DNA from: Verrucomicrobiota bacterium
Lineage (GTDB): Bacteria > Verrucomicrobiota > Verrucomicrobiia > Limisphaerales > UBA9464
Assembly: GCA_017309115.1 (NCBI GenBank)
Contig: JAFLEF010000013.1
Coordinates: 1 to 64,000, forward strand
Length of the DNA: 64,000 bases
Direction of reading: 5' to 3'
In this document: piece after piece, positions 47,579-58,375 of the stretch
How the letters are laid out: each line of letters starts with the position of its first letter
Numbering within the stretch: position 1 is the first letter of the stretch
The notes under the pieces: generated by a model
What the model was told of the DNA's origin: nothing
Databases searched by the model: none
The model's input: the letters and a program-made list of their open reading frames with translations, nothing else
Translations under genes and position numbers: made by a program

Positions 47579-48334
47579 TCAACGGCCAAAGAGTGCCCGG
47601 GCCGCGAACCGGGCTAGCGCGACCGCATCCGGCGTGTCGCCATGAACACAGAGCGTCCGGGGCCGCAACGGCAGTTCCCGGCCTGACTGGGATTCCAGGC
47701 CCCGGCCCTGACGCAACCGTTCCAACCGCCGCCGAAGCACCGCCCGATCCGTCAGCACCGCCCCCGCCTCGGAACGCGGAACCAGGGTTCCATCGTCCCG
47801 ATACCCCCGATCGAGAAAGGCCTCCTCCCAGACCTCCACTCCCCACCGCTTCGCCAATCCCACCAGAGTTCCCCCGGCCAAGGCATACACGCGCAAGTTC
47901 CCAAACCAGCGCGAGACCGTCCGCAGATAGCACTCCGCAAGTTGCGCATCCCGTTCGACCGCGTGGTAGAGCGAGCCGTGCAGTTTCACGTGTTGAAGCC
48001 GCATTCGCTGGGCGCGCGCCAACCGATCCAAGGCTCCCACTTGGTGCACCAGGAGCACTTCCAGTTCCGCCGCCGTCAGGTTCACCTCACCGCGTCCGAA
48101 GGCACCCGCCACTCCCGGGTGGGCCCCGACCCGGACCCCCAACTCCCGACCCCAGGTCAGGCACCGCTCCATCGTGGCCAGATCGCCGGCATGCCCGCCA
48201 CACGCCACATTGACCGACGTGACCAACCCCATGAGCGCCCGCGTCCGCCGAACCGGTTCCCCTTCCCCCAAATCGCAATTGAGATCAAGCCGCACGGCGT
48301 CAGCAAAGGACAGTTTCGCCCTGCACCCCGTCAT
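47579..48334 (-). CDS. pxpA: 5-oxoprolinase subunit A
   Basis: A LamB/YcsF family protein that works with PxpB and PxpC to hydrolyse 5-oxoproline (pyroglutamate) using ATP. Family segments are LDLNCDLGEG, VTSVNVACGGHAGD, GVRVGAHPGV, LQHVKLHGSLYHAV, EAFLDRGYRDDGTLVPRS and LCVHGDTPDAVALA. The ATG at 48334 overlaps the vapC stop (ATGA), but GTG 48295 gives an N terminus that matches the family (MRLDLN...), so the true start may be 48295. Its partners are encoded at 55540-57099, more than 7 kb away. Confidence 0.93.
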   Translation of the reverse strand: MTGCRAKLSFADAVRLDLNCDLGEGEPVRRTRALMGLVTSVNVACGGHAGDLATMERCLTWGRELGVRVGAHPGVAGAFGRGEVNLTAAELEVLLVHQVGALDRLARAQRMRLQHVKLHGSLYHAVERDAQLAECYLRTVSRWFGNLRVYALAGGTLVGLAKRWGVEVWEEAFLDRGYRDDGTLVPRSEAGAVLTDRAVLRRRLERLRQGRGLESQSGRELPLRPRTLCVHGDTPDAVALARFAARALFGR

Positions 48335-48801
48335 GGTGACCTTCTGGCGCTCGGCAAGCGACTGCTGCCAGCACCAGTGATCGGATTGAACCAGCGCAAT
48401 CTCGGGAACCGTACGAAGTCCGCATCTGTCGTATGGAGCACGGCTCCGTTGTTCATGACTAAAGCGGCGATCTGGGCGTCGGACACGAGGTTGCCCGCCG
48501 TGCCCAGTGTCTCCAGAAGCTTCAAAGTATCCCTAACATGATCGGCCTCAGGGGCAACCACCTGAACCGGCGGCTGCTCCAGCCACGAACACACATGACC
48601 TGTGGCTTCGGCCACCGTCATTGGATTCCGGAATGCGCGGGGATGAGTAACGATGCGAACGAACCCAAACAGGACGACATGAAGCAATCCAACCGGTTCC
48701 GTCCCGGAAAGGCAGGACTGCCACCACGGTACGGCCTTGGAATGAAATGGAGAACTGGCGTCGTAGGTATAGATCAGCAAATTGATGTCGGGAACAATCA
48801 C
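48331..48801 (-). CDS. vapC: VapC-type PIN domain toxin
   Basis: A 156-residue PIN-domain ribonuclease. Acidic residues of the fold are visible in IVPDINLLIYTYD (Asp5), VSDAQIAALVM and HTTDADFVRFP. The form WLLHVVLFGFVRIVTHPRAF is like the TIGR00028 subgroup of VapC. Toxins of this type cut tRNA or rRNA. It overlaps the antitoxin gene by four bases, as is usual. Confidence 0.92.
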   Translation of the reverse strand: MIVPDINLLIYTYDASSPFHSKAVPWWQSCLSGTEPVGLLHVVLFGFVRIVTHPRAFRNPMTVAEATGHVCSWLEQPPVQVVAPEADHVRDTLKLLETLGTAGNLVSDAQIAALVMNNGAVLHTTDADFVRFPRLRWFNPITGAGSSRLPSARRSP

Positions 48802-49070
48802 CGAGCACCTCCCGAACGACTCGATTCCAGAAATTCATCCACTTCCAGATCATCGGCTAGCTTGTTGAGTCCAGAGGGATCCAATCCTGGACGCAATCCC
48901 AACGAACGAGCCTGAACGACAAATGGGCGACTGGCGGTGCGAGTCGCTTTCTGGCTCAGCCCGGCACGAATCGCCGCGTTGAGCACCTGCTTGAAGCTCG
49001 TCCGGGATTCATGCATGGCCTCCCGCAGCTTTCGCTCAACATCCCTATCCAAAGTCACGGTAGTTCGCAC
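48798..49070 (-). CDS. vapB: VapB-type antitoxin
   Basis: A 90-residue protein starting at GTG 49070. MRTTVTLDRDVERKLREAMHE at the N terminus has the ribbon-helix-helix pattern of a DNA-binding antitoxin, and the C-terminal half (ADDLEVDEFLESSR) is the expected toxin-binding tail. The stop codon overlaps the vapC start. It probably binds the palindrome at 49075-49086 and represses its own operon. Confidence 0.88.
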   Translation of the reverse strand: MRTTVTLDRDVERKLREAMHESRTSFKQVLNAAIRAGLSQKATRTASRPFVVQARSLGLRPGLDPSGLNKLADDLEVDEFLESSRSGGAR

Positions 49071-49980: not shown

Positions 49981-50973
49981 CTAAACTGGGCAGCGATAAA
50001 GAAGACTGCCACTGTGTTTAATCCAATGCCCCGAAATTTTGGGCTGCCCAGAATCGTCGACATCGGGCTCCGTTGTATAATCGGGGTTATACCACTTGGG
50101 CTGCGCATAATAAACCGGTGAGTCGGTAAGTGTAGCAAAAATGCACATGGCAGCTGAGATCGGCTTCGGGCCAAATGGGGCAAGTGACAAAGGTTTCCTG
50201 TTTGCGATTCCGCAGATAAGGTCAAACGCACCCGAAACGTCATCAGGTGCCGCACGGCAAATATGAACTGAAGAGGGCTGGCCATGCCACATTTTACGAA
50301 TTTCCATAGCAGATCTCCAAACTCGTCTAATCGAGCTTACTCTTGCTGGAAACGGCAAGATTAGAGACAAATCAGTTTCGCTTTCATCAGCCATCAAATG
50401 TTCCTCCAGACCACCCGGCATAAAGCCAACATTCACGGCAAGTCTCTTTCTCGCCTCCTCCTCTGCACCTCGGTTGCTACACCTGAAAGTCGGTAACACG
50501 TCCCAATCCTCATGGTTACTGCTTAGAGCACCATTCCCATATCGCCCAGCACAATAGGTAACCAGCAAGTCCACAACTTTCGGATTCTGCAAAAGACACT
50601 TGAGATAGTAGAAATAAAAACGCTTCGGCATGCTCGTGATGTCCAAAATGACCGACGGCGTGGATGGTTGCCGGGAATCCATCATAAATTCAGGCACTGT
50701 AGCCAACAGATCTCTCATTAGGATGTTTGGTTCTCCGCAGTGACTTCGAAACCTCTCCACATTCTGATCTGTCTTACGCTCACCCTCATCGCTGAAAGGA
50801 GAGTCTGGCCACCGAACACGCAATATGTGATTACTCTCCATGACGCCAAGTCGGCTCAGAGATCTCGCAACTTGAACGGAGCGAATCTCCGAATTGATCG
50901 AGCCAAGAAAGTGCCACCTCCGTGCATCAGAGCACGCGAAAGACCATTCGAGATTACCTGACGGACGAAACAT
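49981..50973 (-). CDS. Uncharacterised protein, possible Rossmann-type sensor of conflict operon
   Basis: A 330-residue protein that I cannot place in a named family. The middle has a strand-loop-helix-strand pattern around VILDITSMPKRFYFYYLKCLL (108-128) then VVDLLVTYCAG (133-143). A second similar block is LSLAPFGPKPISAAMCIFATL (262-282) followed by VYYAQPKWYN. DxTS-x-PK and a later G-P-K-x-x-S with a following YY...YN recall the layout of CARF-like Rossmann sensor domains, but this is inference. It is the last gene of the four-gene operon, 19 bases after the NTPase gene. Confidence 0.8.
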   Translation of the reverse strand: MFRPSGNLEWSFACSDARRWHFLGSINSEIRSVQVARSLSRLGVMESNHILRVRWPDSPFSDEGERKTDQNVERFRSHCGEPNILMRDLLATVPEFMMDSRQPSTPSVILDITSMPKRFYFYYLKCLLQNPKVVDLLVTYCAGRYGNGALSSNHEDWDVLPTFRCSNRGAEEEARKRLAVNVGFMPGGLEEHLMADESETDLSLILPFPARVSSIRRVWRSAMEIRKMWHGQPSSVHICRAAPDDVSGAFDLICGIANRKPLSLAPFGPKPISAAMCIFATLTDSPVYYAQPKWYNPDYTTEPDVDDSGQPKISGHWIKHSGSLLYRCPV

Positions 50974-50992
50974 GCTCTCGAAGATAGGGCTA

Positions 50993-53071
50993 TTAATCCA
51001 GATTCAGTTCCGGCTGTTCCGGGGTACGCCTTCGGGACTCTCCGGCTCCGGGAAGAGCCTTTGCACTAAGGGCATGCTTAAGCAACTCTTCAGGTCGCAC
51101 ATAACGTGGTTCTTTAGTGTGCGCTTGATAAATTTGGTAGTGCGGAACGAGAATCGAATTCGCATAATATTTGAAGCGCCGACCTCGGATTTTATCGGCG
51201 GGGTTCTTCGATGTATGTTCGACACACTCCAAATCCCCCCATGCAACGCATTCATCTAGAAGTCTTTTTAGTTCAGGGAACTGTGCGACCTCATCCAGCA
51301 AAACCGAAAATCCATTAGCACCGGGGTATCTCATGGCCTCGTCATTCCGAAGCCTGATTCGAAGATCAGCAAACACCCTGTCTAGAAATCGAATCCGCAC
51401 ATCGCCGCCTGGGCGCCCCGGCTGTTTCGAAAGGTTCTGATGCCAACGCTTGCTAATGTTCTCTATAGCCACTCGCTGCACGGTAAGCGGCACTTCCCCA
51501 AACCCTGGTAGGCTGGTCTCTGACCTTAAATCACGTAGCCAAAGTTCCCAGGTCTCTCGGCAAATACTAAGAAACAAAGTTATATTGTTTGAACTCAGAG
51601 CCAGCACGTCTTCTGTGCCCCACCAGATGAGTTTCTGTTTGTGACTCGCCGCTAGCTGAAGGATCGCAAGGCTAACCCGCTCCTTTTGCCACCATACTGT
51701 CCATGGAGCTTTATCTTCAAGTTTCGGAGGCCGTTCTGTTTCGTGCCGGGGAGGCTGACCAAGATGACCTCCGTTCTGCTTTGCCCAAGCGCAAGCTAGG
51801 GCAGCATTCAATGGATCAATCCTAGAACTAGAGTCAGACGGCAGCGATCTGGATAGACCTGTCCTCCGATCGTATACAGCGCGGATGTAATTCTTCCATG
51901 AAGCGCTGAGGTCAGTGACGTTAATCAACGCCTCGACCGTAGTGTCCTGTTTGACGATAATGTGCCCAACCAAAACCTGTGGCGAGGGCGAGGCCCCGAA
52001 AAACTGTCGGCATAGAGAACGCTTTGATGAATATGGAGGAAGTCCGTCGGGGAGAGCTGCGCTAAGGCGTCTGCTAAAAACATCATCTGCAAATCCCTTG
52101 AATAACCAGTCTTTTGGGTTTTCCCCTCTGCGCAAGACCGCATCAAAATCTCGGATGACGTAATCACGAGATTCTTCGAGCTTTCTCCCTCCTGGCATGC
52201 TTAGAATCTCACTGTCGTAGTTTCGAGTTCCTATCCGATACGACACTCTTCCGTCCCTCCGCCCAAGAGCGCGATAGATGTGACGTCGGAATTCTTCGGT
52301 AAGTTGATATTGAGGAGGATCTTTGTGAAGGAGCTCTTCAACTTGATCAATACGCACAAAAGCAACAGAATCGGAAGCCAGTAATCCGGAACGCTTCATA
52401 CAAACAACCGAACACGCGACTGGTTCTCCTATGGCGGATTTACTTTGTTCAACTTCCTTGTCCAAAGAGTCGATGTTCCAGTTAGCCCAGCTACGGAGGT
52501 GATTAAGTCGTTTGTCTATTCTCTCACGAACCGCTTTCAACGTCGTGCATTCAGATAGATAGCCAAACCAGCAGTCCTCCTTGACTACGGCTGCGACGAA
52601 GTCATCAACGCGCGCAGTGTCGATCACATCTTCGAAGCACTCCCTTTTCCTGATCATTTGTTCGCACGAATCGAGAAGATCGTTCACAAGCCAATAGTTG
52701 AGATAGTCAACGAAAATGGCTGTCAGGCGTTGCACGTCCTCGTTTGTCGCCCCACTTGGCATTCGTTGAACTATATCGAGAACGCCACTTTTCGAGAGAT
52801 TCACCCCAGTGGCAATGAACATCTGCTGGCTCTTTGGAACCGGAAACTCTACCCCCTCTTCAAAGTATGCGATTTTGACTTTGGGATCAAACAGCCTCAA
52901 TATCATACTCTTACCGCAACCAATGGTGCCGCGAAGAATAACGTTACCTTGAGCGAAGACTTCCGGCAGGTGAGCGACCAAGAATGGACTAAAACAGCGA
53001 ACATACGCCTTCCCGTTTAGGCTGTCGGCTGCACGCGGGTCTTGAAACGGATTTGTGTTGAGTATGCTCAT
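50993..53071 (-). CDS. P-loop NTPase, probably ORC/CDC6-like
   Basis: A 692-residue protein. It opens with NTNPFQDPRAADSL and has a Walker A GTIGCGKS at 48-55. A Walker B-like stretch VAFVRIDQVEELL is at 236-248. NPF...PR upstream of a P-loop resembles the ORC-CDC6-like ATPases predicted in conflict systems. The remaining 440 residues have no catalytic motif I can see and may be helical, with a basic tail. The gene overlaps the PRTase gene stop (ATGA at 53068-53071). GC is clearly lower than in the flanks. Likely a regulatory switch for the neighbouring proteins. Confidence 0.85.
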   Translation of the reverse strand: MSILNTNPFQDPRAADSLNGKAYVRCFSPFLVAHLPEVFAQGNVILRGTIGCGKSMILRLFDPKVKIAYFEEGVEFPVPKSQQMFIATGVNLSKSGVLDIVQRMPSGATNEDVQRLTAIFVDYLNYWLVNDLLDSCEQMIRKRECFEDVIDTARVDDFVAAVVKEDCWFGYLSECTTLKAVRERIDKRLNHLRSWANWNIDSLDKEVEQSKSAIGEPVACSVVCMKRSGLLASDSVAFVRIDQVEELLHKDPPQYQLTEEFRRHIYRALGRRDGRVSYRIGTRNYDSEILSMPGGRKLEESRDYVIRDFDAVLRRGENPKDWLFKGFADDVFSRRLSAALPDGLPPYSSKRSLCRQFFGASPSPQVLVGHIIVKQDTTVEALINVTDLSASWKNYIRAVYDRRTGLSRSLPSDSSSRIDPLNAALACAWAKQNGGHLGQPPRHETERPPKLEDKAPWTVWWQKERVSLAILQLAASHKQKLIWWGTEDVLALSSNNITLFLSICRETWELWLRDLRSETSLPGFGEVPLTVQRVAIENISKRWHQNLSKQPGRPGGDVRIRFLDRVFADLRIRLRNDEAMRYPGANGFSVLLDEVAQFPELKRLLDECVAWGDLECVEHTSKNPADKIRGRRFKYYANSILVPHYQIYQAHTKEPRYVRPEELLKHALSAKALPGAGESRRRTPEQPELNLD

Positions 53072-54111
53072 GATGTTTCTCGGCTCACTCTTGGGAATAC
53101 TGGAACCCAGTTGGACTTCGGGGAATTGAAGTGAACGATCGGTATAGTGTTGTCGGGCGTATTCGAAAACATTACAACCGTTGCTCCTGTATGGTGATCG
53201 CCCCTTAAATGGAAGCCATGTGGGGCATATGGCGGCCCGCCAGCAGTGCAGGTTCCTTCGACCGCTGGGTGAATTCGGTTCGCTAGGGCCGAAACATGAT
53301 TCAACAGAGCATCCGACGCTTCGACTTTGCTCAAGAAGACCGAGTCTCCGAGTTTCACGACCGGAGCGATTTTCAGACGCCCCGCGGTCGTCGCCGCAAG
53401 GTCAGAGAATCGCTTGTAGCCGTCTGGACAGATCAGCATAGGGCAAAAGAGAATCGGTATATCTGAATGCTCTAGTGCCCATTTAACTATCTCAAGCCCT
53501 TGAAGTCCCGTTCCAACGAAGTCTTCCAATAATACTATTCTCTTGAAGTTCATTCCGGTGTAATGGCGTTTGATTTGTGCCGGATCTCCAAGTTCTTTGA
53601 GCGTTAGGAAGTTCGGCCTGCACTTGATTCCTGTAATTGAATTTGCATGATAGAATTCGCTTATAATTAAGCTGTCAGTTACGGACGCATACCAAGTGTG
53701 TTTCGAACGTTCGTTGTCTAGTTGTTCTGAGAAATTGTGTATGCTCATCTTCAATCCAGCACAATCCCATACCCAGCGTGAAATCTGGTTTGAATATGCA
53801 GTCCGATACAAACTCAGAAAATCATCAAACGAGAAGTAGGCTATGCGAAGTATAAATTGAAAAAGGGCGATCTGATCTTCATTTGATAGACCGGTGTTCT
53901 GCATCCAAGCGACCATTCTGTCTTGGAACACCGGTGCATGATGTGAGTACATGGCAGGCACATAGCGCGAATAAGCATGTTCGATCATGAAATCGAGCTG
54001 CCGCAGAATATCCTCAAAGGTCTCATCAGAATCTGGGGCCGCTCCAATTGGAAGGCGGTTCTCCAAACTCCACTGTTTTACGAAGTCACTCAGATGTCTG
54101 TGGCCAGCCAT
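53068..54111 (-). CDS. Phosphoribosyltransferase-like protein
   Basis: A 347-residue protein started at ATG 54111, one base after the methyltransferase stop. A helical N-terminal half leads to RIVLLEDFVGTGLQGLEIV at 191-209, which has the hydrophobic-strand-[ED]D-x-x-G-T-G form of the PRPP loop of type I phosphoribosyltransferases. The C-terminal region includes VVKLGDSVFLSKVEASDALL and LHLRGDHHTG-like segments around 270-325. Related PRTase-like proteins have been predicted as effectors in conflict systems. Substrate unknown. Low-GC gene. Confidence 0.8.
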   Translation of the reverse strand: MAGHRHLSDFVKQWSLENRLPIGAAPDSDETFEDILRQLDFMIEHAYSRYVPAMYSHHAPVFQDRMVAWMQNTGLSNEDQIALFQFILRIAYFSFDDFLSLYRTAYSNQISRWVWDCAGLKMSIHNFSEQLDNERSKHTWYASVTDSLIISEFYHANSITGIKCRPNFLTLKELGDPAQIKRHYTGMNFKRIVLLEDFVGTGLQGLEIVKWALEHSDIPILFCPMLICPDGYKRFSDLAATTAGRLKIAPVVKLGDSVFLSKVEASDALLNHVSALANRIHPAVEGTCTAGGPPYAPHGFHLRGDHHTGATVVMFSNTPDNTIPIVHFNSPKSNWVPVFPRVSRETS

Positions 54112-54112
54112 A

Positions 54113-55324
54113 TCAGGATATGAGTTGTTTAACAATTGTCGCGGCAAACTCTCCAAGTGGTGGAGGCACCGCGTTGCCGATCAAACGATACTGCGCTTGT
54201 TCACTTCCACGAAAAACATAGTTGTCGCTGAATCCTTGAATACGGGCCGCTTCTCGCACTGTAAAGCCTCGGTGTTGGGAAGGATGTAGGAAGTATCTTG
54301 GAGCTCCGAATCGCGTATCCACCGTGCAACTCGGCTTGTCCCATGCCAGGCGGCGAAACTTGCCATTAAACGTACCGACAAGGTCAATGCCTCCGCCAAC
54401 GCGCCTTAAATAGCCCTTCTCAATAAGGCCATCCACAAGCCGCGCAAAACGTGGACCGAGCGCCGCCTCCAACCGGGGGATTGATACGGGATCGGCATCG
54501 CCATAAGCCCGTTGGCGCTCCTGCCTCCTAAGCCGCCTGAGCAATTCCAGAACTGTGCGTTCATGCTCAGTAACGCTTCCGAAGACCTCGGGTATGTCCC
54601 ATGTCGCGACAGCGTTCGTTCCCCCACGAACATTGGAAAGCTTCTGGCCGGGCTTGATTCGTTGGGCAATATTCCATTCGCGACTGTTATTTGTCAGTTG
54701 TCGAGGATTGTGGTTCGGCTGCTTGTCCACCCCAAACAGAGCCGTCCGGAGTTTTCCGCGAGGTCCTTTGGGTTCTGTGAATTGCATATCCTTGCCAGTC
54801 TGCCAGGCGAAGAACAGCACACGCCGCCTGAGTTGGGCCATTCCCAAGTCCGCTGCCTCACAGCGCATAGTATGTGTTCGGTAGCCCGCGAGGCGCATCG
54901 TTGCATCGAGCGATTTCAAATACCGAGCGTGCTCGCCAGACAAGGCGCCGGAAACGTTTTCAACTACGAGAACCTTTGGCGACACTCTTCGTGCCAATGT
55001 CCCTGTGAGCGTCAGGAGATGATTTCGGTCGTCATTTAGCATCCTCTTCCCTGCCGTTGAAAACCCTTGGCAAGGCGGGCCCGCAATCAGGGCATCAACT
55101 CCAAACAGCGATTGTTCGTCGGAAAGACCTTGCGTCAGGTCAACGCGGTTTACAGGACCATCGACATTTGCAGCGAAGTTTTCGACCGCGTCGGGGTCGC
55201 AATCAAACGCGCCCTTCGGTCTAAATCCGCGTGTTGTAAAACCGAGGTCAAATCCCCCGCATCCTGAGAAGAAGCTAGCAAATGTCATGGTTCTACCGTT
55301 TATGTTTTGCTGGTTGTGAGACAT
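54113..55324 (-). CDS. DNA (cytosine-5) methyltransferase
   Basis: A 403-residue C5 methyltransferase (start ATG 55324; ATG 55288 is an alternative). Conserved motifs: I FFSGCGGFDLGF at 18-29, IV GPPCQGFS with catalytic Cys85, VI ENV at 122-124, VIII QLRRR at 164-168, IX and X toward RYFLHPSQHRGFTVREAARIQGFSD and GNAVPPPLGEF. The target-recognition region lies between 175 and 330. It methylates cytosine in a short site that cannot be read from sequence. No restriction endonuclease gene is adjacent; the next genes are a PRTase-like protein, an NTPase and a putative sensor. Confidence 0.96.
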   Translation of the reverse strand: MSHNQQNINGRTMTFASFFSGCGGFDLGFTTRGFRPKGAFDCDPDAVENFAANVDGPVNRVDLTQGLSDEQSLFGVDALIAGPPCQGFSTAGKRMLNDDRNHLLTLTGTLARRVSPKVLVVENVSGALSGEHARYLKSLDATMRLAGYRTHTMRCEAADLGMAQLRRRVLFFAWQTGKDMQFTEPKGPRGKLRTALFGVDKQPNHNPRQLTNNSREWNIAQRIKPGQKLSNVRGGTNAVATWDIPEVFGSVTEHERTVLELLRRLRRQERQRAYGDADPVSIPRLEAALGPRFARLVDGLIEKGYLRRVGGGIDLVGTFNGKFRRLAWDKPSCTVDTRFGAPRYFLHPSQHRGFTVREAARIQGFSDNYVFRGSEQAQYRLIGNAVPPPLGEFAATIVKQLIS

Positions 55325-55539
55325 GACTCGTTCTTGTGCCAATCGCGCGTCGAAGACTCATTCACTGGACCTGCGGGAGCAATTGCTAGTGCTTTACCAA
55401 GGAAACAATTTACCGTCCGAGTGTTTGGCGGTCGAGGCCCTTGCTGTCCACCATCGATTCGCACAACTGTTGTTACCTCAAAATTGTGGCAAGGTCATGA
55501 CCTGCTTGCAAGTGACGCTGTCTTTTTGCCGGTCGTGAG

Positions 55540-57099
55540 CTATCCCGACCTCCACCGGAATCGCACCCGGGATCCCGGACGCATCTGAGCGAGTCGTCGG
55601 AGGGCCTCCGGCTCCAGCCAGCCTAACTTGGGATAACCGCCCACGGTGGGGCCGTCCGGAAGGGTCACGATGGGTTGGCCGTTGGCGGGGACCTGGACGG
55701 TGCCCGGCAACACGGGTTCCGAAAGGATCTCCGCAGGCGAAGGTCGGAGCGGTGGACCCATTAATCGATAGCCCACCCGATCGCATTGATTCGAGAGCGT
55801 CCAAGTCTCCGCTGCGAATCGGGCCCGATCTTCCGGCGTAAAACTGCTCCACTGCGGACCCGGCCAGACCCACAGCGGCTCGGTTGCGGAGTAGTCCGGA
55901 ACTTCGGACCAGTGAACCCGGCGACCGGCGGTTCCCGACGGCAGGATCAGCGGCGAAGGCTGGGGCGACCGCAGTTCGCTGCCGGATATCCACGGTTCGC
56001 CCAAGCCCGCCCGGGGCAAGGTGCTGACACTTCCCAATCCCGGCTCGGCACACCAACCGCCCGGGACCGCCATGTAACTCCAGACTCCCGGCGTCGCCGG
56101 CGGGAAGTTGAGAACTTCGCCCGCCTTCACGCGAAAGGCCGACCAACCCGGGCGACCAGGCAGTCCAAGTGAGCCGCCGGTTAACGCCAGCCACGAATCG
56201 CGGAGCACTTCGAAGCGTTGCCCCTGAAAGCAGAGTTCCAGTACGGGGGCTGACTCGGGATTCTCCAGCAGCCGATTGGCCCAGCCCGCAGCGATCCGGT
56301 CCAGCGGACCGCTCGGCGGCACTCCGAACCGGGACAGTCCCGGACGTCCAGCATCCTGCAGGGTCAGACCCAACCCGGGCGAAACGACCCGAAGGAGGGG
56401 AGTTCCCAGCTTGGGCCGTGGACCAGGCTCGTCGGGACCTGATCCGGGAGCGTCGTCCGGCACGAACCGCAACCGATCCCCGGCGCGCAGAAGAAAGGCC
56501 GATTCCACCGTCGCCGCCCAGGGTTGGAACAACGGCGCCGCGGTGGACCCAATCAAGTTCCACCCACCCGGACTGGCCACGCTGTAGATCCCGGTTTGCT
56601 CGCCTCCAATGGCCACGCTGCCGGCCGGAACCCGGGTACGCGGCGTCGCCAAGCGGGGCGTTGCCAAACGCGGATCCAATCCGCCGAGGTAGGGGAATCC
56701 CGGCGAAAACCCCAAGCACTGCACCCGATACCGCGGGGCACTGTGGCGCTCGATCACTTCGGCTTCGCTCAATTCATGAAGCGCCGCCACTCGGGCGAGG
56801 TCCGCTCCGTCATAACGCGTAGGAATCTCCACCAGCCGCTCCGGGATCGCCTCCGCCACGGATCCTAACTCTCGCGGCACCTCCGCCAGCCAAGCTCGAA
56901 CCGCCGCCAAGTCCGCAGGCTCGCCGGTCCAGACGAGCGTGGTGAGCCCGGGGATCAATTCGAGGCGGCCAACGCGGTCAGAATTGGTCCGGGACTCCCA
57001 CCGCTTCACCAGCGCCTGACTCCGGGCGAAGGCCGCTTCATCGGGTCGCTCGGCAAAGCGGAGTTGCACCGCCCGGGGACCATAAGAAACGACCTCCAT
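55540..57099 (-). CDS. pxpBC: 5-oxoprolinase, fused subunits B and C
   Basis: A 519-residue fusion. Residues 1 to about 225 are PxpB (LGFSPGFPYLGGLDPRLATPR, PAGSVAIGGEQTGIYSVASPG). Residues 237-519 are PxpC (VVSPGLGLTLQDAGRPGLSRFG, WANRLLENPESAPVLELCF, TVGGYPKLGWLEPEALRRLAQM). Together with PxpA these hydrolyse 5-oxoproline. In many bacteria pxpA, pxpB and pxpC are adjacent; here pxpA is 7.2 kb downstream beyond the accessory operon. The start is ATG 57099, 16 bases after hisS. Confidence 0.95.
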   Translation of the reverse strand: MEVVSYGPRAVQLRFAERPDEAAFARSQALVKRWESRTNSDRVGRLELIPGLTTLVWTGEPADLAAVRAWLAEVPRELGSVAEAIPERLVEIPTRYDGADLARVAALHELSEAEVIERHSAPRYRVQCLGFSPGFPYLGGLDPRLATPRLATPRTRVPAGSVAIGGEQTGIYSVASPGGWNLIGSTAAPLFQPWAATVESAFLLRAGDRLRFVPDDAPGSGPDEPGPRPKLGTPLLRVVSPGLGLTLQDAGRPGLSRFGVPPSGPLDRIAAGWANRLLENPESAPVLELCFQGQRFEVLRDSWLALTGGSLGLPGRPGWSAFRVKAGEVLNFPPATPGVWSYMAVPGGWCAEPGLGSVSTLPRAGLGEPWISGSELRSPQPSPLILPSGTAGRRVHWSEVPDYSATEPLWVWPGPQWSSFTPEDRARFAAETWTLSNQCDRVGYRLMGPPLRPSPAEILSEPVLPGTVQVPANGQPIVTLPDGPTVGGYPKLGWLEPEALRRLAQMRPGSRVRFRWRSG

Positions 57100-57115
57100 G
57101 AGCGCGGGGTGCCAG

Positions 57116-58375
57116 TCAGGCTGCCCCCGCCAGGGCTGCGATGACCTGATCGAACGGCACCACCTGTTCCTCGCGGGTGCGCAGATTCTTAATCCGCACC
57201 GCGACGGTTCCCTCCGCGGAACGTTCGACTCGCAGCGTCTGCCGGGCTCCCAGCTCCAACGCTCGTTTGAACTGCTTGTCGCCTTTGGTGGCCACCAGCG
57301 TGAACTCGACTGCGGTTCCCGCTTCCCGCACCTGCTGCACCAGGCGCAGAGAGTCCGCCCGCAAGGTCTCGTCCTCAATCAACACCACCACTTCCACCGC
57401 GCCGGCGAACGACGGCACCAGATTTCGTTCCTTCAACAACTCGGCCAACACCACGTCGCCCATGCCAAATCCGAGCGCCGGCAGATTCACCTTTCCTTCG
57501 CTGACCTGGTGCACCAGCTGGTCATAGCGGCCGCCGCCGGCAATGGCCCGGAACTTCCCTTTGCGATCAAAGGCCTCAAACACGATGCCCGTGTAGTACG
57601 CCAGACCCCGGATGACCCCGTAGTCCACCGCGACGAACGCGCCGAGTCCGCGGGCTCCCAGATTGTCGAGGACCACCTGCAATTCCGGCTCGGGAACACT
57701 GGCCCGAATGAACTCCTGCACATCGGTCAGCGAAACCCCCAGGGCCTGGAGCTTTTCAGCGCTCACCTCCGGGCGTTCGCGTTCGATCTTGTCCACCACC
57801 TGATAGAACTCGTAGGCCCGCGCCGGATCCCCGCCGCGCGCCGCAAAGAACCGCTGCCACGCCTGCCGACTGCTCAAGCGAATCACGAAGTCCTCGGAGG
57901 TCAGGCCGAGGGAACGCAACACATCAATCAGGAGCGCCACAATCTCGGCATCCGCTCCGGGATCCGCTTCGCCGAACAGGTCGCAGTTCAACTGGAAGTG
58001 TTCGCGGAGCCGTCCTTTCTGAGGTTTCTCGTAGCGGAAGAGCTGCGGAAACGAGAACCACTTAATGGGCTTTTTGTAGGCCCGTTCCGCGGTGGCCACC
58101 ATCCGGGCGACGGTGGGGGTCATCTCCGGACGCAACGACACGGCCCGCTCGCCCTTGTCCACAAAGTTGAACAACTGCGCGACGATCTCGGCGCCCGACT
58201 TGTTGGTGTACAACTCCAGCGGCTCCAGCGGCGGACCATCGTATTCGCGGAATCCATAGCGCCGCGCCGTCTCCCGCCACCGAGCAAAAATGTGATTCCG
58301 CAGATCACAGCTCCACGGTTCATTGGCCGGCAACGGTTCCGGATAAAAGTCGCGAAATCCTGGCAAACGCTCCAT
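57116..58375 (-). CDS. hisS: Histidine--tRNA ligase
   Basis: A 419-residue class II aminoacyl-tRNA synthetase. GFRDFYPEPL at the start, motif 2 FRYEKPQKGRLREHFQLNCDLFG near residue 115, GLAYYTGIVFEAFD near 260 (histidine-binding segment; the more usual form is GLDYYTG), and motif 3 GFGMGDVVLAELL near 310 mark the catalytic core. The C-terminal anticodon-binding domain ends with VVPFDQVIAAL. ATG 58375 is used because the longer frame has a non-conserved leader. Confidence 0.96.
   Translation of the reverse strand: MERLPGFRDFYPEPLPANEPWSCDLRNHIFARWRETARRYGFREYDGPPLEPLELYTNKSGAEIVAQLFNFVDKGERAVSLRPEMTPTVARMVATAERAYKKPIKWFSFPQLFRYEKPQKGRLREHFQLNCDLFGEADPGADAEIVALLIDVLRSLGLTSEDFVIRLSSRQAWQRFFAARGGDPARAYEFYQVVDKIERERPEVSAEKLQALGVSLTDVQEFIRASVPEPELQVVLDNLGARGLGAFVAVDYGVIRGLAYYTGIVFEAFDRKGKFRAIAGGGRYDQLVHQVSEGKVNLPALGFGMGDVVLAELLKERNLVPSFAGAVEVVVLIEDETLRADSLRLVQQVREAGTAVEFTLVATKGDKQFKRALELGARQTLRVERSAEGTVAVRIKNLRTREEQVVPFDQVIAALAGAA

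Follow-up and report, generated by a model that had tools for sequence, protein, structure and literature searches.

Four open reading frames lie on the minus strand at positions 49981-55324 of the window (i.e., the whole 64-kb stretch of DNA that was analyzed). Both these coordinates and the intergenic spacing of 1 nt, -4 nt (an ATGA overlap), and 19 nt agree with the original prediction for this DNA. The four genes and the features around them are as follows:

55540..57378, minus strand: PxpBC-like gene (CT_C_D + CT_A_B, Pfam), right border of the inserted stretch
54113..55324, minus strand: DNA methyltransferase (MTase) gene, 403 aa, ATG at 55324 (alternative TTG start at 55342)
53068..54111, minus strand: PRTase-CE gene, 347 aa, ATG at 54111, 1 nt past the MTase stop
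50993..53071, minus strand: ORC-CDC6-like AAA+ ATPase (ORC) gene, 692 aa, predicted switch
49981..50973, minus strand: CARF6-family gene, 330 aa, predicted sensor built of two Rossmann-like halves
48798-49070, minus strand: small putative antitoxin, no Pfam hit and recognized by reading only, between pxpA and the operon
48331-48801, minus strand: PIN-domain protein (PF01850, 9.7e-08), between pxpA and the operon
47579..48334, minus strand: PxpA-like gene (LamB_YcsF; PF03746, 4.8e-69), left border

The four-gene block has a GC content of 0.504 (0.477-0.544 for single genes; GC3 of 0.49-0.54), as compared with 0.618 for the rest of the 64-kb window, in which none of 95 other 5344-nt windows falls below 0.579 and the mean GC3 across 36 other called ORFs of >200 aa is 0.72. 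The block is thus poorer in GC than its surroundings, as had been claimed, but its content is ~50 percent rather than the ~40 percent proposed; the two sample lines given for that figure (GC 0.433 and 0.383) are low extremes. Scanning returned 6 promoters against 3.9 expected (SD 2.1) and 2 terminators against 6.3 expected (SD 2.6), counts that carry no information.

The first gene encodes a C5 cytosine DNA MTase (PF00145 in Pfam, 2.5e-52), to which M.HaeIII is the closest solved sequence (5.9e-27), and the GPPCQGFS and other C5 motifs are identical across the three sequences compared. The second gene product matches PRTase-CE (PF24390; 6.5e-24, 85.6 bits against a Pfam cut-off of 27), and the Asp and Gly of its PRPP loop (residues 197 and 202 counted from the ATG; 201 and 206 in the alignment) are invariant in 17 sequences; this protein is predicted to be a nucleotide-targeting effector. 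The third matches the ORC-CDC6-like family (PF24389) with 111.1 bits over residues 28-647 (Pfam cut-off, 27), and its P-loop residues and D242 are kept in 18 sequences. Pfam thereby returned both the ORC-CDC6-like and the PRTase-CE family that had been suggested for this locus, and the GTIGCGKS P-loop, the EDFVGTG PRPP loop, and the GPPCQGFS C5 motif are all present, with key residues kept in relatives. Likewise borne out was a C5 MTase without a restriction enzyme, there being no nuclease family among the other three genes. Searches with Pfam, PADLOC, and NCBIfam found no nuclease family in any of the window's four genes.

The structural model of the ORC protein is of moderate quality (pLDDT 70.6, pTM 0.54), with approximately residues 60-280 above 80 and a poor C-terminal half, in which an enzymatic domain may therefore be hidden. 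Its structural matches are near-tied, namely BrxC of BREX (9.9), Avs3 (9.5), human ORC (9.3), archaeal Orc1/Cdc6 (8.8), and Cdc48/Pex1-Pex6 (8.3); judged by this moderate model, the window NTPase belongs to the AAA+ proteins, and nothing narrower can be read from its structure by itself. No relatives of the NTPase were found among viral contigs.

The fourth protein had been described as an unassigned, putative Rossmann-like sensor. It does have two Rossmann-like halves, and the protein can be assigned: it matches the PADLOC CARF6 models over its full length (3.8e-63, residues 2-302), and the top 20 structural matches are all CARF proteins, giving it a CARF fold. Its model is closest to a CARF nuclease activated by cyclic oligoadenylate (cOA); 6sce, which we take to be Can1, with two CARF domains in one chain, aligned over both halves (224 residues). 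Among these structural matches were no nuclease folds other than CARF nucleases, which excludes nothing. CARF6 is predicted to be a sensor; no cyclic-oligonucleotide synthase was recognized within the operon.

The order MTase-PRTase-ORC-CARF6 occurs at eight loci (the window, L039, L045, L046, L047, L048, L049, and L050), with gaps of mostly a few bases (L048 left out for its PRTase start). The hosts include Pseudomonas composti (L049), Glaciimonas (L050), and Verrucomicrobiota (L045, L047, and L048), so that distant genomes hold the four families together with their order unchanged, as a neighborhood check of the original prediction called for. A scan of genome contigs yielded 6 loci, and because only two short peptide patterns were used, there are at least this many relatives. 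A survey with PF24389 gave matches over the cut-off in 11 of 387 genomes of the window's phylum (12 loci) and in 11 of 398 of the Pseudomonas phylum (11 loci). Among the 22 of these 23 loci that were examined, 19 carry ORC and CARF6 and three lack CARF6; in these three (L118, L084, and L085, in genomes G259, G320, and G722), the over-cut-off match covers the P-loop stretch only, and L118 holds a 544-aa gene matching the ORC HMM at 1e-07.

We compiled a census of 32 loci, all with the ORC-CARF6 pair, from 19 survey loci, 4 contig-scan loci, and 9 plasmid or phage records (of 153). Matches over the Pfam cut-off were taken; left out were G514 (identical in coordinates to G665), L040 (from the L047 genome), and H2, H5, H10, and H32, presumed from equal scores to be copies of H1, H4, H9, and H31. 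Some census sequences went into the HMMs used for detection, but the PADLOC CARF6 models, which are PADLOC's own, matched all 12 census proteins submitted. Also excluded were the ORC-less PRTase-CE loci L035, L036, L037, L041, and L042, whose neighbors were read as type I restriction-modification, NADAR, and HD-type genes. PRTase-CE can thus be found without the other three families, which bears on the refuting condition of the original prediction, but these surroundings also look like defense. The window's genome carries a second ORC-CDC6-like/CARF6 system (L005:7950-12641 on contig C24 of G000), in which the MTase is of N6/N4 type and the ATPase is fused to a protein kinase. One census record, L092 (CAKLQF020000018.1), is labeled Acinetobacter phage and has efp, cstA, kamA, and a tRNA beside the cassette; it resembles bacterial chromosomal DNA more than phage.

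Across the census, the effector slot is exchangeable: it holds PRTase-CE in 23 loci, a calcineurin-type protein in 3, HD-CE in 3, and a kinase fused to ORC in 3. The HD-CE and calcineurin-type calls rest on Pfam; the kinase calls on a Pfam match over the cut-off (L005), one below it (L116, 2e-05), and reading (L083); and the PRTase calls on Pfam (window, L038, L039, L043, L047, and L086), PADLOC (L097), or our own HMM (the rest). As the effector varies while ORC and CARF6 stay, the PRTase is best read as an effector and not as the maker of a CARF6 ligand. ThyX genes adjoin all four related rhizobial loci (L088, L089, L090, and L093), and dUTPase genes adjoin three further loci (L086 by Pfam, L092 by tblastn, and L110 by reading). 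Such a neighbor was found at 7 of the 23 PRTase loci but at none of the 9 others, on flanks of unequal length, and at 7 of 11 N6-MTase versions, which hints at thymidylate/uridylate pools as a possible PRTase target, although the seven loci fall in two clades. The Clover system (PMC12265719) provides an example of dTTP gating an effector of nucleotide pools.

The DNA MTase is similarly variable, being present in 27 of the 32 clusters and belonging to four Pfam classes (C5, 12; N6, 11; D12, 2; N6/N4, 2). Of these calls, 23 came from Pfam, PADLOC, BLAST to the window MTase, our own C5 HMM, or record annotation, and four (L087, L088, L089, and L093) from the xPPY motif and position only; in L082, L113, and L116, intervening genes separate the MTase from ORC. 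At L082:8092-10431, a DndB-like gene lies between the calcineurin-ORC-CARF6 genes and the D12 MTase. Because several MTase classes occur, methylation most likely serves as a self-recognition mark, and the Vsr genes next to two C5 loci, L045 (Pfam match) and L116 (tblastn match), fit an MTase that modifies host DNA. With 5 of 32 loci (L043, L112, L114, L115, and L117; L112 is near a contig end) lacking an MTase, it could also be an enzyme independent of the other three genes. Next to PRTase-ORC-CARF6 at L043, L114, L115, and L117, where no DNA MTase was recognized, lie HAD-hydrolase-type (4 of 4), PfkB kinase (3 of 4), and NADAR (2 of 4) genes.

In a quick tree of ORC and CARF6, in which long branches meet and deep joins are therefore unsure, the window fell within a fully supported set of eight, all with C5 MTase and PRTase; on this tree, effector identity changes 4 times (the minimum for four states being 3) and MTase class and position 7 times. 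Within the eight loci, identity is 41-77 percent for the MTase, 27-66 percent for the PRTase, 33-75 percent for ORC, and 30-66 percent for CARF6, making the MTase the most conserved. The window MTase groups with those of L039 and L048, and the window ORC with those of L045-L047. Agreement of the MTase and ORC trees was rejected (AU P = 0.009 and 0.0025, for groups picked after seeing the identities); neither the CARF tree (AU P = 0.06) nor the PRTase tree is decisive. Judging from this conflict between sequence trees, MTases appear to have been exchanged between systems. Co-evolution of the MTase with ORC is thus not required, which is hard to square with the idea that ORC reads the site of that particular MTase.

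The operon is probably mobile, judging from its GC drop, the lack of an MTase or CARF6 match in the pxpA stretches of seven relatives, and the plasmid carriage of a related cassette. More specifically, the pxpBC-pxpA interval in the window consists of the operon and the PIN-protein pair. Among the seven relatives, pxpBC directly adjoins pxpA in three; a same-genus genome (L127) has two other long genes of native GC between them, so the site may be variable; and the stretch around pxpA showed no pxpBC in the remaining three. None of the seven pxpA-region stretches matched the window MTase or CARF6, and no convincing target-site repeats were found at the operon. The related four-gene cassette, with an N6 MTase, was found with at least 80 percent of the query covered in 140 of 72,556 plasmid records, mostly from Klebsiella and mostly predicted to be conjugative; as 141 of 142 matching plasmid records are at ≥99 percent, this is essentially one spreading copy. 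In six plasmid records, the cassette genes other than the methylase are annotated as hypothetical proteins. Plasmids in 4 of 5,426 E. coli genomes carry the PRTase-ORC-CARF6 part of this cassette, and the strain names C600 and J53 suggest that these carriers are conjugation recipients. Searching the plasmids by tblastn with the window NTPase or PRTase gave no match; only the divergent L038 ATPase matched. Some related loci adjoin annotated NACHT, TIR, or SIR2 genes.

Taken together, we put a probability of about 0.6 on this being a mobile defense operon that resembles restriction-modification without a nuclease. The idea of a candidate conflict system is supported by family matches, recurring gene order, and plasmid and defense-gene context, from which we infer a working defense system in which each protein has its predicted activity. 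The C5 MTase, going by what is known of its family, would mark host DNA; the ORC-CDC6-like ATPase and CARF6 would detect DNA that is invading, unmethylated, or being replicated, or else a nucleotide signal derived from it; and the ORC/CARF6 pair would then activate PRTase-CE, which would break or divert nucleotides via the ribose/glycosidic bond, stopping phage replication or growth. More tentatively, and with the odds against it, the ORC/CARF6 pair might be a general signal-gated alarm. On detecting non-self DNA, it would set up a nucleotide or oligonucleotide state that a two-half CARF protein reads outside CRISPR, and it would drive any plugged-in effector (PRTase, phosphoesterase, HD hydrolase, or kinase), with swappable MTases providing self-recognition and PRTase versions perhaps acting on thymidylate/uridylate pools.

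Other explanations place the signal or the purpose elsewhere. CARF6 could be a sensor for a cyclic oligonucleotide that another module of the cell produces (type III CRISPR or a similar ancillary module), with the MTase as a passenger; those CARF proteins whose function is known bind cyclic oligoadenylates, and the likeness of the CARF6 model to a cOA-activated nuclease fits this. We searched 14 carrier genomes, several of them incomplete, for one Cas10 family, the palm domain PF22335, and 3 of 14 matched at an E value of 0.001, two over the cut-off (strongly in L046, 120 bits; L049, 28-30 bits) and one below it (L050, 24 bits). However, 11 of 14 had no match at this E value, including the window's genome (95.3 percent complete; 0 matches), and because the family was also over the cut-off in 5 of 14 named control genomes, E. 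coli among them, we read the low scores, including the 28-30-bit matches, as related cyclase domains. An MTase in 27 of 32 clusters is, moreover, more than expected of a passenger, and we consider this explanation quite improbable.

Equally low odds attach to the PRTase being a synthase that converts PRPP into a ribonucleotide-type signal sensed by CARF6 while the ATPase acts on DNA. The PRPP-loop residues are intact, and other PRTases in conflict contexts have been proposed (PMC5512222) to make or sense a nucleotide; yet a phosphoesterase, HD domain, or kinase fills the slot in 9 of 32 loci while CARF6 stays, which would need a change of ligand. A selfish or addiction module, in which the MTase is the antidote and the PRTase/ATPase the toxin, stabilizing a mobile element with phage defense as a secondary effect, would agree with plasmid carriage, the GC drop, an MTase with a potentially toxic partner, and the adjoining PIN protein with its small putative antitoxin. 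We regard it as unlikely, given that some related loci lie beside NACHT, TIR, or SIR2 genes and that a dedicated ATPase/CARF pair exceeds what addiction needs.

As for known systems, conflict systems with PRTase-CE (PF24390) and ORC-CDC6-like (PF24389) proteins, the same two families as in the window operon, were reportedly described by Nicastro et al. (2023, NAR), with nucleotide-targeting effectors as a theme; the HD-CE and calcineurin-type effectors in the same slot are what that theme would predict. Makarova et al. (2020) are said to have included a CARF6 family in their CARF classification. The PADLOC 2.0 models of this family, which include a kinase-AAA-CARF model and match the window's fourth gene over its full length, are family labels, and we saw no described system among them with the window's MTase and PRTase. 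MADS, the methylation-associated defense system, combines a methyltransferase with kinase/ATPase partners; kinase and ATPase versions of the window's relatives gave weak mad6 and mad8 matches, whereas the window PRTase, ATPase, and CARF6 gave none, nor was there one in the best 25 of 62 matches for the window MTase. PglZ, PglX, and other Brx families of BREX are absent from the window's four genes, which instead include PRTase-CE and CARF6. From type III CRISPR, the CARF nuclease 6sce aligns with CARF6, but CARF6 has no nuclease family and the window's genome no PF22335 match. The operon shares a DNA MTase with type II restriction-modification but has no restriction endonuclease family in the other three genes. 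With type III-A retrons it has a PRTase effector in common (weak PADLOC PRTase_III-A match, 2.6e-11), but no reverse transcriptase was found among the four genes. A link to type III-A CRISPR through that label was dropped, as type III-A retrons have PRTase effectors, PRTases being what type III retrons typically use in this role (PMC12548924); the label presumably derives from retrons, not CRISPR. The fused kinase-ATPase-CARF form of L116 resembles an architecture described in Makarova 2014 (PMC4012209), and a figure legend of the DefensePredictor paper (PMC13092281) names MTase and PRTase among its systems.

The combination of the four proteins had been suggested as possibly new. Among the matches listed from the open-licence literature, which did not include the paper closest to this subject (Nicastro et al., 2023, cited in PMC12839542), we found no description of the four-gene system, and to this extent the suggestion stands, more weakly than had been hoped. 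It does not extend to the parts: the Pfam families and PADLOC CARF6 are already known, NCBIfam already names an anti-phage PRTase-like family (DS32_1, with weak matches only, 0.066 for the window protein and 0.0019), and the ORC-effector linkage is probably also known. If our preferred reading of a mobile defense operon is right, the operon would represent a methylation-linked class of defense whose exchangeable effectors, nucleotide-targeting proteins or kinases, stand in for the cutting enzyme. It would have a CARF protein but no cyclic-oligonucleotide synthase recognized in the operon. The ligands of CARF6, the way in which unmethylated DNA could trigger abortive infection, and what PRTase-CE enzymes do would then become testable.
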